Source: Chitinophaga pinensis (GTDB taxonomy: Bacteria; Bacteroidota; Bacteroidia; Chitinophagales; CAMDFR01). From it: a stretch of 64,000 nt of DNA. The notes below the pieces were generated by a model. The model worked only from the letters and a program-made list of their open reading frames with translations, did not search any database and was not told the origin of the DNA. Below are positions 7,299-59,905 of the stretch, one piece after another. A program made the position numbers and the translations under genes. Numbering within the stretch: position 1 is the first letter of the stretch; each line of letters begins with the position of its first letter. The stretch is from the NCBI GenBank assembly GCA_945897725.1, contig CAMDFR010000001.1, forward strand, positions 124,001 to 188,000, given 5' to 3'.

Positions 7299-7919
7299 AT
7301 GGAGGATAAAAAAGATCACATTTTAAAAACGGCTGAAAATCTCTTTTCTGTCAATGGTTTCAAAGGAACCACCACTCGAATGATTGCCCAAGAATCTAAA
7401 GTCAACTTAGGCACACTCACTTATTACTTTGGCAACAAAGAAGATCTTTTCAAAGAGCTGATAAAAAAAAGAATTGGTTTCTATAAAACAAACATCAAAG
7501 AAAAGTTGTTGCAGCACAAAGTTGGCTATATGGATTTAATTTTAGAAATTGGCGATATCTATGTTGACCACATGATGAGCAATATTGCCTTTCATAGAAT
7601 CATGAACAAAGAAATCATGACCAATTCCGATAGTGAAGCGGCAAAATTTGCAACCACACATATCATTGAAAATCGAAAACAACTAGCCTCTATCGTGAAT
7701 AAAGCCATTCAAAAGAAAGAGATTCGAAAAATTGATACTGATATGTTCCTAAATTCTTTGATTGGAACCATTCTTCACATGGCAAACACAGAATCCATGA
7801 CCCTTAAAATAATGGGACAAGACCCCAAAAAAGACAAAATAAATAATCACAAGAATACCAAACGCATTAAAACATTTATTAGAGATTATATCAGCGTTTA
7901 TTTAAACCCATCGTTCTGA
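7299..7919 (+). CDS. TetR/AcrR-family transcriptional repressor
   Basis: A 206-residue regulator. The N-terminal helix-turn-helix domain (about residues 1-50) has the TetR signature: ILKTAENLFSVNGFKGTTTR, then VNLGTLTYYFGNKEDLF. The rest is an all-helical ligand-binding and dimerisation domain with no recognisable ligand family. It is the first gene of an efflux operon whose next ATG follows the stop by one base, so it almost certainly controls that pump and itself, through the duplicated 21-bp site on its promoter. The ORF track start at 7263 is a TTG inside the promoter; ATG 7299 (MEDKKDHILK) is chosen. Confidence 0.92.
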   Translation: MEDKKDHILKTAENLFSVNGFKGTTTRMIAQESKVNLGTLTYYFGNKEDLFKELIKKRIGFYKTNIKEKLLQHKVGYMDLILEIGDIYVDHMMSNIAFHRIMNKEIMTNSDSEAAKFATTHIIENRKQLASIVNKAIQKKEIRKIDTDMFLNSLIGTILHMANTESMTLKIMGQDPKKDKINNHKNTKRIKTFIRDYISVYLNPSF

Positions 7920-33840: not shown

Positions 33841-34420
33841 ATTATTAATTTGATTGGAAGCTATTTCCCGCTTTCCGCTCTATCTTTTTTTAGATACAGA
33901 AAAAAAGGATGCCGCTTCAATCGGGGCTAGGGTGTAGTATTCCAATAAAAGTTTTGCATCCATACAGATTCAACTAAACCCTCGTCAAGCATATCATTCA
34001 GCCTGATTGTTTTTGTGCCGCTCCTCTGGAGCTGATCCCGATTCAGATGATTTGTCTAGTAATATTTCGCTCCGCTGGAGCTGCCAAATAGAATATATAT
34101 TTATTGACCAAAACCTTCTCCAAGCATGTCATTCAGAAGGAACCTTCACGAAATGACTACAAGACTTACGATGCTAAGAAAATTATTATTTGACCAGGTT
34201 TTTAAAGCCACTTGTCCGCATTGGACTGAAACGGTAGGTGACAAGACAAACACCAACCACAGGAGTAGATTTTGTAAAGGACTAGGAATTGGCTTAGGGG
34301 CTGCAGCAAGTACCGCGTACTGCGAAAGACCAGGTGCCATTGCTTTTGTACTCAGCAATGGCAAAGCCCCAAAAAAAATTATTATCAAATAACCTTTCTT
34401 CTCAAAGATGAAATCTCAAA
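33841..34420. repeat. 580-nt gene-free island of dispersed-repeat remnants
   Basis: No credible gene: the 88-aa (+) and 80-aa (-) ORFs of the track overlap each other and lack protein-like composition. The region holds, in order, an inverted-repeat element (33853-33932); two GCTCCnCTGGAGC hairpins (34020-34032, 34069-34081) between two imperfect 26-bp repeats with CAAGCAT and TCATTCAG (33976-34001, 34110-34136); an 11-bp direct repeat (34179-34189, 34375-34385) flanking about 185 bp; and two further hairpins (34306-34323, 34336-34362). It lies between convergent genes. Confidence 0.7.
33853..33932 (-). repeat. dispersed Bacteroidota intergenic repeat, partial copy
   Basis: Read on the minus strand it begins CCCTAGCCCCGATTGAAGCG, then GCATCC, an A/T-rich hairpin (GGATGCC side, TTTTTTTCTGTATC), then AGCGGAAAGCGGGAAATAGC. 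I recognise this layout from repeated intergenic elements in many Bacteroidota genomes, possibly the group described as Flavo-1-like repetitive RNA; that link is from memory and untested. Confidence 0.55.
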
Positions 34421-54621: not shown

Positions 54622-55452
54622 TTAGCTTTTGATGATATCCTCATAAACTACTCGATCGAACATATTCAGCATTCCACCGCGTGTGGCGTTCAATATCTTT
54701 ACATTTCTTTTTCCGGCCTCCACCTTAAGGAGATTTAATTGATGCCAGATAGCGTACATATTGAACCAATCTATTCCGGTACTTGCTAAATCTTTTTCAA
54801 AATCTTTCTCCGCCTTATTTGAGGTAATAGGCGAATTTCCGTAAAAGCGAACATTATCTCTATCATTAGCGATAAGGCAAAGTTGATCCAGATCAAAACC
54901 CATCAAATAAATCTCTGAAAAGCCCATATAAATAGCAATGGTGAGACATTGTGTAATGACCGTGGGTACACGCATCATCAAACCTGTGATATCAACTTTT
55001 GCTTTTGACAAACAATTAGCGTTAAATCCTGGTTCAACAAAATAAGAATGATCTTTTAGTTTAGGTCTTTGCATCACCATTTCTTTCGTGTTTAAACCAA
55101 AAAAATAGGTACAATCTGCCGGCAATTTTTCTTCCATCGTTCTGAGCCATTCTACCCAATCACTATCATATTCTTTTGGATGAAACTTAGGAATAACAAC
55201 TTGATACTTGGGTTTAAAAATAGAAGTATCGGGATGCGCATGAAAATGATTTTGAGACATTACAATTTCATTCTGCAATAATTTCAAATCTTGTAGTTTA
55301 ATGGAATGCCCACTGCCTAGAATAAATAATCGCTCTCCTTTATGAATGTTTTTGAATTTGACATTTTTTCTCAAATCATCGACGGGAAGTAGATTCTTAA
55401 TATTTGCCAACGTATTTACAAGATGGCCCCTCAAATAATAGCTTAGGTTCAT
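54622..55452 (-). CDS. DUF115 / GT42-like protein, possible glycosyltransferase
   Basis: A 276-residue soluble protein. The N-terminal GERLFILGSGHSIKLQDLKL followed by IVMSQNHFHAHPDT resembles the nucleotide-sugar-binding start of DUF115 and sialyltransferase family GT42 proteins (GNGPSL ... N-F). A second conserved-looking element is EIYLMGFDLDQL, and the end NVKILNATRGGMLNMFDRV also fits DUF115. It may modify a surface glycan. ATG 55452 is used; the track start 55458 is a TTG. A -7 element TACCTTTG is at 55478-55471 (minus). Confidence 0.6.
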   Translation of the reverse strand: MNLSYYLRGHLVNTLANIKNLLPVDDLRKNVKFKNIHKGERLFILGSGHSIKLQDLKLLQNEIVMSQNHFHAHPDTSIFKPKYQVVIPKFHPKEYDSDWVEWLRTMEEKLPADCTYFFGLNTKEMVMQRPKLKDHSYFVEPGFNANCLSKAKVDITGLMMRVPTVITQCLTIAIYMGFSEIYLMGFDLDQLCLIANDRDNVRFYGNSPITSNKAEKDFEKDLASTGIDWFNMYAIWHQLNLLKVEAGKRNVKILNATRGGMLNMFDRVVYEDIIKS

Positions 55453-55538
55453 AATCAACAGATAATATCACAAAGGTATCAAAAATCGTCTAGTCCTAAA
55501 CTACAAATACCAACTTGCTTATTCCAAGAAATTTGCTG

Positions 55539-55563: not shown

Positions 55564-57204
55564 ATGAAGTTCATGAAAAAATTATTACTCTTTTTATTTG
55601 TTAGTTTTTTTTTGGTCAATAGAAGCTTTTCTCAAAACATTGTCATTACTGAGATTATGTACAATAACCCAGCCTCAGACTCCTTAGAATTTGTCGAAAT
55701 TTACAATAATGGTTCTTCCACCGTTGATTTGGAGGGTTGGAAATTCAGCAAAGCATTTAAGAAAACGATACACGCTACTTTGATTGCGCCAGGTCAGTAT
55801 AAAGTCTATTGCGTCGATTCTATGGCTTTTTATCGAGCATTTGGCATGAGTGCTAACCAATGGGGAAGCGGCTCCCTGAGCAATGGGGGAGACTCTGTCT
55901 ATTTGGTAAATGGCCTTGGCGTCATGCAAGATTTAGTAGTCTACAACAATAGTTTTCCATGGCCAGAAGTTGCGGATGGCGAAGGTCCATCATTAGCACT
56001 CTGTAATCCTAGTTCCGATAATTCAATAGCAAGTAATTGGAGCTCTGCTCAAAAATATACTGGTATTTTTATAGAGGAAAAGGAGATTTACGCCCACCCA
56101 GGATTAGGATGTCCAAGCACAGATGCTGTAGGTCCTGTTCCTTTCAAAGCATGGACAACCGCTGCGAACAAAGTTCAAATTGCCTTTAACGAATCGCTAA
56201 ACTCTAGCGCAGATGTGGTTTCGCATTATACAGGCCTTGGAACCATCTTTTCAGCTATCAGAAGTAGCAGTAATGATACGGTAACTTTAACCTTAGCAAC
56301 CCCATTAAGCATCGGAATGTATTCTACCATTACAATAGACAATATTGAAGACATAACTGCTAATGCTATGACTGCGCCACGTTCTTTTGATCTTGTATTT
56401 AACAATACTTTAGGATCTATTGCGATGGATGAAATATATTACAACGATCCTTATTCTCTGCTCAAAGACACCATTGAATTTATTGAAATCACCAATTATG
56501 GAAATATGCCTGTCTCTCTAGGTGGCTATAAATTTAATCAGGGATTATCTTTTAAATTTCCTGAAAGAACTTTAGCTCCAGGAGCGTTTTTAGTCATTTC
56601 TGAAGATTCGGTTTTAATGCAAACCGTCTTTGGTTTAGCCACCTTACAATGGAGTAGTGGTGGATTAGGAAATACAACTGACACACTCGTATTAACAAAC
56701 TCCTTGGAACAAACGATTGACAGCGTTTATTACGCCTCCGCAACTCCTTACGATGTGAATGCCAATGGCAATGGTCCGTCTTTGGTAATGTGTCCACCTT
56801 ATAACTATGCGCTTCCTACAAACAACGATATTGCTTCAAGTTGGCATGCAGAAGTCAATAGAACTGATTTTCTAAATGTAAAATCATTCAATGGATACAA
56901 TTTAATTGTATCACCTGGTAGAGCAAATTGCGATCCATTATCTATTGACGAAGGAAATGATTTAAACTCTTTTTCTCTCTACCCAAATCCAACCACACAA
57001 GACTTTATTGTTGAGAAGTCAAACAACAATCCATTTGAATACATAGAGATATATGACATGCTTGGAACCAAGCTCTTAAAAAAAGATTTTTACAATCAAA
57101 AATCATTCATAACTTTACGAGACTATTCAAATGGTGTCTATTCAGTTGTTCTGAAGGACATCGACAATAAAATACTAAGCATTAAAAAATTAATTAAAAA
57201 CTAA
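55564..57204 (+). CDS. secreted protein with two lamin-tail domains, T9SS type A cargo
   Basis: A 546-residue protein with a signal peptide (FMKKLLLFLFVSFFLVNRSFS). The first lamin-tail domain (about 25-150) has VITEIMYNNPASDSLEFVEI and LEGWKFSKAFK. Next is a SbsA/Big_5-like bacterial Ig domain (VQIAFNESLNSSADVVSHY), then a second lamin-tail domain (DEIYYNDPYSLLKDTIEFIE). The C-terminal Por-secretion tail has FSLYPNPTTQDFIVEK and ends in SIKKLIKN, directing type IX export to the surface. It heads a tightly spaced block: the next gene begins 4 nt after its stop. Confidence 0.88.
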   Translation: MKFMKKLLLFLFVSFFLVNRSFSQNIVITEIMYNNPASDSLEFVEIYNNGSSTVDLEGWKFSKAFKKTIHATLIAPGQYKVYCVDSMAFYRAFGMSANQWGSGSLSNGGDSVYLVNGLGVMQDLVVYNNSFPWPEVADGEGPSLALCNPSSDNSIASNWSSAQKYTGIFIEEKEIYAHPGLGCPSTDAVGPVPFKAWTTAANKVQIAFNESLNSSADVVSHYTGLGTIFSAIRSSSNDTVTLTLATPLSIGMYSTITIDNIEDITANAMTAPRSFDLVFNNTLGSIAMDEIYYNDPYSLLKDTIEFIEITNYGNMPVSLGGYKFNQGLSFKFPERTLAPGAFLVISEDSVLMQTVFGLATLQWSSGGLGNTTDTLVLTNSLEQTIDSVYYASATPYDVNANGNGPSLVMCPPYNYALPTNNDIASSWHAEVNRTDFLNVKSFNGYNLIVSPGRANCDPLSIDEGNDLNSFSLYPNPTTQDFIVEKSNNNPFEYIEIYDMLGTKLLKKDFYNQKSFITLRDYSNGVYSVVLKDIDNKILSIKKLIKN

Positions 57205-57207
57205 ATC

Positions 57208-58068
57208 ATGAAAAAAATCATTGCTCTTTTATTGGTGACCTCTGCTATTTTTTCAATGTTTATCCAAGGGGTAGACTCTAACAGTGGTAAGGTTGGTTAT
57301 ACTAACTCCCCGGGTGAAGCGAATTGCACAAATAGCGGATGCCATACTTCCTTCACCTATAATACAGGAACTGGTTCGATTACACCAAGTTCATCAGACA
57401 TGACAGGCTGGATTTATACTCCTGGCACCACATACAACATGAGTATTACGGTAGCTAAAACATCGGTTGCCTTATTTGGTGTAGATGTTGAGATATTGGA
57501 TTCTACAGGGGCAAATGCTGGTACAATCAATGTGACTGATGCCGCAAAAACACAGACAGCAAGTGTAATGGTCAGTGGTAAATCAAGAAACAACTTAACA
57601 CATAAATCAGGGGGTGGAACCTCTTCTTCTGGAGCAGCTACGTTCAATTTCAGTTGGACAGCCCCGGCTACAGATGTAGGAAACGTAACCATGTATTTTA
57701 CTGGAAACGCGAGCGACAACCTTAACAATAAAACTGGCGATTACATTTATGGTAGTTCTCAGGTATTCACTCCTGTTGTTGTTCCATCAGGTATTTCAGA
57801 GGTATCTCAATTACATGGCCTAACTATAAACCCACAACCTATTAGCAACACAATGACTATTTCATTTTATAGTCAATCTACAGAGAAAATGAATGCCATT
57901 ATTTTTGATTTGAGTGGCAAATTAGTTTATTCATTAGAGAGCAAAAATGCTGTGATTGGAGAAAACATCCTGAGTATAGCTAAGCCAGAAAACCTTACTA
58001 GTGGCATTTACTTTTTACAGATGTCGATAGGTAATAGCAACACCACATCAAAATTAATTATCCAATAA
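57208..58068 (+). CDS. choice-of-anchor-V-like secreted protein, T9SS type A cargo
   Basis: A 286-residue protein with a signal peptide (MKKIIALLLVTSAIFSMFIQG). The following SGKVGYTNSPGEANCTNSGC, then His, resembles the haem-type CxxCH leader of choice-of-anchor-V/reelin-like proteins, but here the spacing is Cys-x4-Cys-His. A beta-rich domain follows and the C-terminal tail (GLTINPQPISNTMTISFYSQ, then SGIYFLQMSIGN) is a type IX sorting domain. Function unknown; surface display is likely. The next gene starts 7 nt later. Confidence 0.8.
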   Translation: MKKIIALLLVTSAIFSMFIQGVDSNSGKVGYTNSPGEANCTNSGCHTSFTYNTGTGSITPSSSDMTGWIYTPGTTYNMSITVAKTSVALFGVDVEILDSTGANAGTINVTDAAKTQTASVMVSGKSRNNLTHKSGGGTSSSGAATFNFSWTAPATDVGNVTMYFTGNASDNLNNKTGDYIYGSSQVFTPVVVPSGISEVSQLHGLTINPQPISNTMTISFYSQSTEKMNAIIFDLSGKLVYSLESKNAVIGENILSIAKPENLTSGIYFLQMSIGNSNTTSKLIIQ

Positions 58069-58074
58069 AAACGA

Positions 58075-58473
58075 ATGATGAGATTCAAATTTTTATTTTT
58101 CCTCACTACTATTGTCTTATTTGTTTTATTTAGCTCATGTAAAAAAGTAGCTGGGGATGGTGGATTGGCATCTATTCAAGGCAAAGTGTATGCCATCGAT
58201 TATGATAAAACTGGTCTTATAAAAAGTGAAGGCTACTTAGGCGACGAGAGGGTTTGTTTATCTTATGGTACTAACACCACAGTGGATGTAGAGACTCGCA
58301 CATCATACACTGGTGAATACAAATTCGATTTTTTACAGAAGGGTGATTATACGGTTTTTGTGTATAGTCCTTGCGATACTTGTCCTCTTTTGCAAAGAAG
58401 TGTTCTTCAAAAGGCAACTATTGTTGAGCGAAAAGAAGTGATAACTTTGGATGACTTACTAATCACTCAATAA
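58075..58473 (+). CDS. small lipoprotein with carboxypeptidase-regulatory-like fold
   Basis: A 132-residue protein with signal and lipobox (FVLFSSCKK, Cys about residue 23). The mature part (LASIQGKVYAIDYDKTG, then YTGEYKFDFLQKGDYTVFVY and CDTCPLL) has the beta pattern of a carboxypeptidase-regulatory-like domain, with a CDTC motif near the end. It probably sits in the outer or inner membrane leaflet beside the two secreted proteins. The VTC gene follows 10 nt downstream. Function unknown. Confidence 0.7.
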   Translation: MMRFKFLFFLTTIVLFVLFSSCKKVAGDGGLASIQGKVYAIDYDKTGLIKSEGYLGDERVCLSYGTNTTVDVETRTSYTGEYKFDFLQKGDYTVFVYSPCDTCPLLQRSVLQKATIVERKEVITLDDLLITQ

Positions 58474-58482
58474 AGTTTATGT

Positions 58483-59241
58483 ATGAGTAATGATTTGACC
58501 AGGAGCACCGAAACCATCAACAGCTTTGATTCACTTACTCTTGAAGAACTTGACAAAGTAAAACTACTAAATCGTGTAGATTCGAAATACGTAATCCACA
58601 TAAAGGATTTTCCAATGATTCTAGGAGAAATTCAATCGGATTATAAGGTTTTAGAAATTGAATCTAAAAGAATACATCGATATGAATCACTCTATTTTGA
58701 TACTGTAGATTTCGACCTCTATAAATATCATCATAATGATAAACAAGATCGATTTAAGGTAAGATATCGAAAATACCTAGATACTGGCTTATGCTATTTT
58801 GAAATTAAGTACAAAGAAAAGGGCAATCGGACCAATAAAATAAGAGCGAAAAGAATAGATATCAGTACGACCTTATCTGAAGCGGACATTAAAATGATTG
58901 AACATGATTTAATAAAGGGAGAAATGCTTCAAGAAAAAGTTTGGGTCTATTTTGACAGAATTACTATAGCCAATAACAATTTTAAAGAGAGAGTGACTTT
59001 GGATTTGAATATTAGATTTGACAACAAAAAGATAGTGAAAAGTTTTCCCGAATTAGTGGTCTGTGAGATTAAGCAAGAAAAGTCAAGTTATACGAGTAGC
59101 GTTATCAAAGCCTGTACTAAAAGGCATTATGAACAAACTGGGTTTAGCAAATACTCCACAGCCATAGCGATGATGGAAGCAGTGAAAAACAACAATTTTA
59201 AACCCAACTTTATAAAAATAAATAAACTAATCAATGGATAA
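58483..59241 (+). CDS. VTC-domain polyphosphate polymerase-like protein
   Basis: A 252-residue cytoplasmic protein of the CYTH/triphosphate-tunnel fold, VTC branch. The charged tunnel strands are visible: LNRVDSKYVIHIKD (Lys), RIHRYESLYFDT (Arg), DRFKVRYRKY (RxR), CYFEIKYKEKGNR (ExK), ELVVCEIKQEK and ACTKRHYEQTGFSKYST. VTC proteins in yeast make polyphosphate from ATP; bacterial members are assumed to do similarly or to use another triphosphate. The gene overlaps the DUF4956 gene by 8 nt, so the two products almost certainly work together. Confidence 0.9.
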   Translation: MSNDLTRSTETINSFDSLTLEELDKVKLLNRVDSKYVIHIKDFPMILGEIQSDYKVLEIESKRIHRYESLYFDTVDFDLYKYHHNDKQDRFKVRYRKYLDTGLCYFEIKYKEKGNRTNKIRAKRIDISTTLSEADIKMIEHDLIKGEMLQEKVWVYFDRITIANNNFKERVTLDLNIRFDNKKIVKSFPELVVCEIKQEKSSYTSSVIKACTKRHYEQTGFSKYSTAIAMMEAVKNNNFKPNFIKINKLING

Positions 59242-59905
59242 AGAATTATTAGACACGGCATCAGATCTCGCAACAGACGCTGGAATTTTTGGACTTAGTA
59301 GCATCTGGGATTTTGCCATCAGATATGCATTTAACCTCATCATGGTGTTTATTGTTGTGAGGGTTATATACTATCCAAAACATAAAAACAAAGATTTCTT
59401 ATTTACTTTTTTTCTTTTCAATACAGTGAATTTCTTGATTTGTTTTTTGTTAAGCACCACCAAACTTAAGCTTGGTTTTGCCTTTGGGATGTTTGCAATC
59501 TTTTCCATTTTAAGATATAGAACGGTATCTGTACCTATCAGAGAAATGGGTTATTTCTTTGTTTGTGTAACGCTTGGTTTATTAAATTCATTGGCAGACG
59601 TCACCAATGCTTGGCCGATTTTGCTTTTGTCAAACTCTATTTTATTGATTCTTATTTTTCTTCTTGAAAGATCTCAAAGCTTGGCACATGAAAATTATAA
59701 AGAAATCAATTATGAACGAATAGATTTAATCAAACCAGATAGGCGAGAGGAGATGATAAAGGATTTGATAGATAGAACAGGACTACCTATTCATCGTGTG
59801 GAAATTAACAAAATAGACTTTCTAAAGGACGTCACTCGAATTAAAGCATTTTATCTATCAACAAGCAACGAGACAGATGCTTCTGTTGATAATGATGATG
59901 ATTAA
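59234..59905 (+). CDS. DUF4956 membrane protein
   Basis: A 223-residue protein with four to five helices: AIRYAFNLIMVFIVVRVIYY, then FTFFLFNTVNFLICFLL, LGFAFGMFAIFSILRYRT and LLLSNSILLILIFLLE. A soluble C-terminal domain contains DRTGLPIHRVEINKIDFLKD. GFAFGMFAIFSILRYRT is the DUF4956 signature. It is the usual partner of bacterial VTC proteins and may form the membrane channel or anchor through which the polymer is moved, which is inference from context. It ends the block. Confidence 0.88.
   Translation: MDKELLDTASDLATDAGIFGLSSIWDFAIRYAFNLIMVFIVVRVIYYPKHKNKDFLFTFFLFNTVNFLICFLLSTTKLKLGFAFGMFAIFSILRYRTVSVPIREMGYFFVCVTLGLLNSLADVTNAWPILLLSNSILLILIFLLERSQSLAHENYKEINYERIDLIKPDRREEMIKDLIDRTGLPIHRVEINKIDFLKDVTRIKAFYLSTSNETDASVDNDDD

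Follow-up and report, generated by a model that had tools for sequence, protein, structure and literature searches.

Introduction

Synthase-dependent exopolysaccharide systems, such as those for Pel, cellulose and alginate, combine synthesis at the inner membrane with an outer-membrane barrel. Genes for CotH, a polyphosphate polymerase and DUF4956 are found in streptococcal, clostridial and bifidobacterial pel loci (PMC7112168). In Streptococcus intermedius, such a triad (SIR_1594-1592) sits in the pel cluster, where loss of the DUF4956-like protein raised Pel, loss of CotH lowered Pel, and aggregation was reduced in both cases (PMC12345266). In yeast, the VTC complex couples polyphosphate synthesis to membrane passage (PMC9911596), and a published list of the iron stimulon of Bacteroides thetaiotaomicron includes both BT3498 (DUF4956) and BT3499, a DUF2490 protein (PMC10434189). 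Several phyla have VTC-DUF4956 pairs, for which we found no established function in the literature searched. Here, we describe a five-gene block encoding such a pair in a 64,000-nucleotide stretch of DNA (the window) from a freshwater Bacteroidota draft genome (Chitinophagales, 84.7% complete). While the CotH-VTC-DUF4956 kind of locus was already known, comparison with relatives showed that VTC-DUF4956 has two core partners, a lipoprotein of an unnamed family and an outer-membrane barrel, with surface proteins as optional additions.

Results

A lipoprotein, VTC, DUF4956 and a barrel recur in fixed order

The block consists of five open reading frames on the forward strand (Table 1), with gaps of 3, 6 and 9 nt separating the first four genes and an 8 nt overlap between the VTC and DUF4956 genes. 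An earlier note on this DNA had described five tightly packed genes with these domains, which we confirmed; its distances of 4, 7 and 10 are start minus stop positions. Judged from the spacing, the block is likely a single transcript. No terminator-like site was found in the gaps between the five genes, and scans for sigma-70 promoters and terminators gave no excess. A scan for Bacteroidota-type promoters (TTTG-N18-21-TANNTTTG) was uninformative, with 5 sites compared to 4.4 expected from shuffles.

We scanned 249 genomes of the order and found DUF4956 matches in 115, falling into a strong class (E <1e-35, ~73 genomes) and a divergent class (E ~1e-21 to 1e-9). Loci were retrieved from the order (80) and, with species names, from a species-wide scan (80); a few genomes are in both sets (for example, L112 = G002 and L118 = G019). 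Throughout, G000 is the window's own genome, G001, G002 and G003 are other genomes of its genus, and L-numbers are retrieved loci. Among the 80 scored order loci (window included), VTC was found in 72, the lipoprotein in 45, a DUF2490-type barrel in 48, a lamin-tail domain (LTD) in at least 16 and CotH in at least 9; because the profiles were derived from order loci, these counts are partly in-sample, and those for CotH and LTD are lower bounds. The 75 scored named loci had VTC in 67, the lipoprotein in 40, the barrel in 54, LTD in at least 6 and CotH in at least 14.

Across ~150 loci, the core has the order lipoprotein-VTC-DUF4956-DUF2490, with junctions usually near 0 nt or overlapping. Junctions of 30 nt or less were found in 38 of 40 lipoprotein-VTC pairs (median 1 nt), 67 of 70 VTC-DUF4956 pairs (median -14 nt) and 43 of 46 DUF4956-DUF2490 pairs (median 4 nt), as expected for translational coupling. 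The VTC-DUF4956 pair is thus a real unit, as the note had proposed. Lipoprotein and strong DUF4956 matches occurred together in 55 of the 249 order genomes, with DUF4956 only in 18, lipoprotein only in 6 and neither in 170 (Fisher 2e-32, uncorrected for relatedness); the association spans ~12 families and accounts for 55 of 61 lipoprotein-bearing genomes. The four components recur in fixed order across many families, beyond chance. In family f9 and some others, the operon is preceded by genes such as tsaE and alanine dehydrogenase, which were considered as parts of the system and rejected as housekeeping neighbors. Four drafts labelled 'Chitinophaga pinensis' (L112, which is the sister species G002, L131, L159 and L169) differ widely, and the label is probably rough.

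Table 1. Coordinates of the block, its surroundings in the window and a second operon type in relatives
Feature	Coordinates	Strand	Evidence and remarks
Gene 1, lamin-tail T9SS protein	55564..57204	+	Pfam; two LTDs, weak Big_5 between them, type A sorting domain; optional partner
Gene 2, choice-of-anchor V T9SS protein	57208..58068	+	NCBIfam NF041895, 85 bits; CX4CH motif (CTNSGCH); seen in the genus only
Gene 3, small lipoprotein	58075..58473	+	Alignment, structure model, fold matches, co-occurrence; core part
Gene 4, VTC-domain protein (CYTH/TTM fold), probable polyphosphate polymerase	58483..59241	+	Pfam VTC, Vtc4 profile match; core part
Gene 5, DUF4956 membrane protein	59234..59905	+	Pfam DUF4956, structure model; start overlaps VTC end by 8 nt; core part
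MptE-like upstream neighbor	54622..55458	-	33.4 bits, just below the cut-off of 34.6; divergently transcribed
Flavo-1 RNA	33860..33932	-	Rfam RF01705, 70.5 bits
Second operon type	L192, L194-L196, L199-L201, L205, L209 (order relatives)		Lipoprotein, YD-repeat protein, DUF2490 barrel

The VTC protein retains the Vtc4 active site

Gene 4 encodes a 252 aa protein composed of the VTC domain alone (PF09359, 82.2 bits with a curated cut-off of 23), with no SPX domain and no transmembrane segment. A profile of 27 bacterial VTC sequences matched yeast Vtc4 (PDB 3G3Q) with an E value of 2.3e-9; single-sequence searches of PDB with VTC and with DUF4956 gave no match, so that VTC needed a profile. Residues R94, R96 and E195 correspond to Vtc4 R264, R266 and E426 and are invariant in the 27 sequences; the R264A/R266A/E426N form of yeast Vtc4 is a published inactive form (PMC9911596). 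In total, the conserved residues include equivalents of Vtc4 K200, R264, R266, K281, R361, R373, E426, K428, S457 and K458. With this active site intact, the protein is probably a polyphosphate polymerase. PPK1 is present in the source genome and genus, and ordinary intracellular polyphosphate storage therefore does not need VTC.

Gene 5 matches DUF4956 (PF16316) at 174.5 bits with a curated cut-off of 30.6, and its structure model (predicted local distance difference test, pLDDT, 80) has five predicted transmembrane helices followed by a C-terminal beta-alpha-beta-beta domain. The conserved RYRT motif (94-97) would be placed where the third helix meets the cytoplasm if that domain is inside. 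In a comparison with PDB, no support was obtained for a transmembrane fold like that of MgtC or Vtc1. At L110 and L111, a divergent DUF4956 protein (~225-235 aa) is followed by a ~1005 aa protein (which matched CotH at L111) and then by a short VTC (220-228 aa); this triad is a second, diverged lineage.

The lipoprotein family and a barrel that left the operon

The gene 3 product combines a hydrophobic N-terminal stretch with a lipobox cysteine (Cys22, FSSC) and belongs to a family for which Pfam and NCBIfam have no model, all of its Pfam matches being below threshold. In the family alignment, C22, G27, G30, G36, G80, F84, L87, G90 and Y92 are invariant; gene 3 additionally carries a GxGG motif and a CDTC motif, the latter common in members found with VTC. 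The structure model (pLDDT 90) is a transthyretin/CnaB-like beta-sandwich according to fold matches. In the window, the gene directly precedes VTC and matches the family profile with an E value of 6e-50, and the lipoprotein tree places the window's genus with families f9 and f20. A small YD/RHS-repeat protein is often encoded between the lipoprotein and VTC in relatives.

The DUF2490 barrel, whose family appears among putative porins as TC 1.B.81 (PMC4827864), is normally encoded directly after DUF4956. It is missing from the operon in all members of the genus seen, and in the window DUF4956 is followed by a Rid-family gene in the opposite orientation. An operon-type barrel is kept elsewhere in G000 (contig C27, 19375-20073), G001 and G002. 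These barrels nest with family f9 inside the operon-encoded barrels (98/91). The tree leaves out the second DUF2490 match of G003, which is of this kind too. The placement of the genus beside f9 in the lipoprotein tree agrees with that of the barrels. We read this as an operon that split and a barrel that was retained, its gene having moved out of the operon in this genus.

Surface proteins are recurrent but dispensable

Genes 1 and 2 encode candidate cargo of the type IX secretion system (T9SS). Gene 1 scored above the curated cut-offs for LTD (109.6 bits) and Por_Secre_tail (38.8 bits), as did gene 2 for choice_anch_V (Table 1) and Por_Secre_tail (39.6-41.8 bits). The T9SS type A sorting domain (TIGR04183, cut-off 23) was matched at 37.5 and 39.6 bits, respectively. 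SprA was found in all four genus genomes, placing the secretion system in the source genome. The CTNSGCH motif of gene 2 (window positions 57325-57345) resembles some c-type heme sites; a c-type cytochrome model gave a match that was not significant (E 0.74).

Among the loci examined, gene 2 was seen only in the window's genus, with other copies at L032, L033 and L242. Gene 1 is present in G000, G001 and G003 (in the last at one contig end, with lipoprotein-VTC-DUF4956 at another) and deleted in G002. In G002 (L033, near 7600-7805), ~1.38 kb of the lamin-tail gene was lost between two 9-nt direct repeats (in the window's orientation, ACTCTTTTT), and what remains is its start and sorting domain, out of frame. 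Despite this deletion, the lipoprotein, VTC and DUF4956 of G002 are intact at 81-94% protein identity. Neither T9SS protein is thus needed for the block to persist. The comparison with relatives that the note had called for upheld the core and the recurrence of LTD and CotH, and the two T9SS proteins of the window proved to be its least constant part. The note had overlooked the constant parts, which are the conserved lipoprotein family and the barrel that normally comes after DUF4956.

Genes 1 and 2 may be unrelated T9SS cargo sharing the transcript, with the unit being lipoprotein-VTC-DUF4956 only. The genus restriction of gene 2 and the destruction of gene 1 beside an intact core in the sister species agree with this explanation, as does the abundance of LTD genes in the order, most of whose genomes have ~2 to 15 matches. 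However, several families have LTD genes beside the core; LTD was found in 17 of 237 near same-strand genes compared to 1 of 504 other genes at the same loci, and LTD-lipoprotein junctions were 30 nt or less in 12 of 12 cases. LTD and CotH are also fused in single T9SS proteins beside the core at L035, L162 and L126. Because of this recurrence, the explanation fits gene 2 better than gene 1, and we consider it somewhat unlikely overall.

Taken together, LTD or CotH was found near the core in 21 of 80 order loci, and in 22 of 237 near genes compared to 2 of 504 others, bearing out the expectation that such proteins accompany VTC-DUF4956 above chance. Their recurrence in several families, their fusion and the loss in G002 suggest a recurrent but dispensable surface partner. 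The note had also stated that CotH is absent. This holds for the block, in which Pfam gave no CotH match, but not for the genome, where four CotH genes lie outside the block. In two members of the genus, a CotH gene is ~6 kb from PPK1 (G000, contig C6, 51346-59192; G002, contig C10, 27569-35422).

The lipoprotein-barrel cassette has a second context

At ~10 loci, the lipoprotein and barrel (in most with the YD-repeat protein) were found without VTC-DUF4956 (Table 1). The neighbors here are a T9SS SBBP protein, a 344 aa P-loop protein with a weak DUF1611/MobB match, an MsbA-like ABC exporter and a beta-aspartyl-peptidase. These loci cluster as one group in both the lipoprotein tree and the barrel tree, which points to a single switch. 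The presence of the cassette beside an ABC exporter suggests a general envelope part, which fits a role in export. As a test for a link of this context to cyanophycin, cyanophycin synthetase does not discriminate, scoring above the cut-off in 17 of 22 genomes irrespective of context. The cyanophycin synthetase (TIGR02068) of G000 lies at 103773-106361 of contig C6, and the clade probably also stores cyanophycin. Chloroflexota loci encode VTC-DUF4956-CotH with neither lipoprotein nor barrel, as expected if both serve an outer membrane.

Surroundings of the block

Both neighbors of the block lie on the opposite strand, an MptE-like gene upstream (Table 1) and the Rid-family gene downstream. A Flavo-1 RNA was found elsewhere in the window. 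PHROGs and PADLOC scans gave no matches, and there is thus no sign of phage or known defense.

Discussion

The constancy of the lipoprotein and barrel suggests a polymer that crosses the cell envelope. We tentatively favor, at somewhat less than even odds, a reading of the operon as an envelope-spanning polymer machine with export through DUF4956, the lipoprotein and the barrel. VTC, at the cytoplasmic face, would turn ATP-derived phosphate into polymer; DUF4956, whose translation is coupled to that of VTC, would anchor the polymerase at the inner membrane and pass on the growing chain; and the lipoprotein, in the periplasm or anchored to the outer membrane, and the DUF2490 barrel would take the chain on to the surface. 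The lamin-tail protein may be a T9SS-secreted surface partner, which CotH may replace or fuse with in relatives; the note's idea that the polymer decorates surface proteins is speculative. A more specific version is doubtful: Bacteroidota would have a machine dedicated to secreting polyphosphate across the envelope, with surface CotH or lamin-tail proteins using or binding the polymer and the cassette adopted once by a second exporter.

Several points weigh against an envelope-spanning machine. We found no product of any bacterial VTC-DUF4956 described in the literature searched, and in the only mutants that we found described, those of S. intermedius, deletion of VTC, unlike deletion of the DUF4956-like protein or CotH, had no reported loss of aggregation (PMC12345266). 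Neither the lipoprotein nor the barrel was near DUF4956 in 22 of 80 order loci. The DUF4956 model had no PDB match with E <0.1, and a role as a channel is thus a guess. The second context indicates that the cassette is not specific to VTC and makes specificity for polyphosphate less likely. Ancestry could also explain why the lipoprotein and barrel track the diderm lineage seen here, as both families are perhaps specific to Bacteroidota.

It may instead be that VTC-DUF4956, the latter with its C-terminal ACT-like domain, senses or spends ATP or polyphosphate and tunes the export of an exopolysaccharide or matrix proteins, with CotH and LTD proteins acting outside and no export of polyphosphate. 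The pel loci with CotH, a polyphosphate polymerase and DUF4956 (PMC7112168) and the altered Pel and lower aggregation of the S. intermedius mutants (PMC12345266) are consistent with such regulation, as is the use of the lipoprotein-DUF2490 cassette by another exporter. However, PelG was absent from all four genus genomes, and the gene maps had no polysaccharide gene recurring beside Bacteroidota loci. Regulation alone also does not account for how closely the lipoprotein and barrel track VTC-DUF4956, and we regard it as unlikely. It is more improbable still that VTC is another triphosphate-tunnel enzyme (a phosphatase or phosphotransferase) in a system that phosphorylates or processes a surface molecule: CYTH/TTM folds carry out several reactions (PMC8233210, PMC4641920), and the Vtc4 match is distant, being found with a profile and not with a single sequence, and lacks SPX, but the ten Vtc4-equivalent residues are conserved and the Pfam VTC score is far over its cut-off.

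Naming the lipoprotein and barrel as partners leads to a four-gene hypothesis, in which surface polyphosphate would require all four genes. If true, this would be a bacterial VTC-type route to extracellular polyphosphate, distinct from PPK1.

Among known systems, the Gram-positive pel accessory genes resemble the block in having VTC beside DUF4956 with a secreted LTD- or CotH-type partner. In contrast, the block has neither Pel genes nor CotH, and the window's genome adds a lipoprotein, a barrel encoded elsewhere and T9SS sorting domains. The eukaryotic VTC complex (Vtc1/3/4; PDB 3G3Q, 8I6V) shares the Vtc4-like catalytic domain, the same active-site residues and a membrane partner, whereas the VTC protein of the window lacks SPX and transmembrane segments and its partner DUF4956 matches no solved fold. 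BT3498-BT3499 of B. thetaiotaomicron, whose function was not studied in the work listing them (PMC10434189), share the DUF4956-DUF2490 order of most relatives, while DUF2490 is not adjacent in the window. Although the proteins are unrelated to those of synthase-dependent exopolysaccharide systems, with no glycosyltransferase and no TPR scaffold, the logic of the proposed machine is the same.

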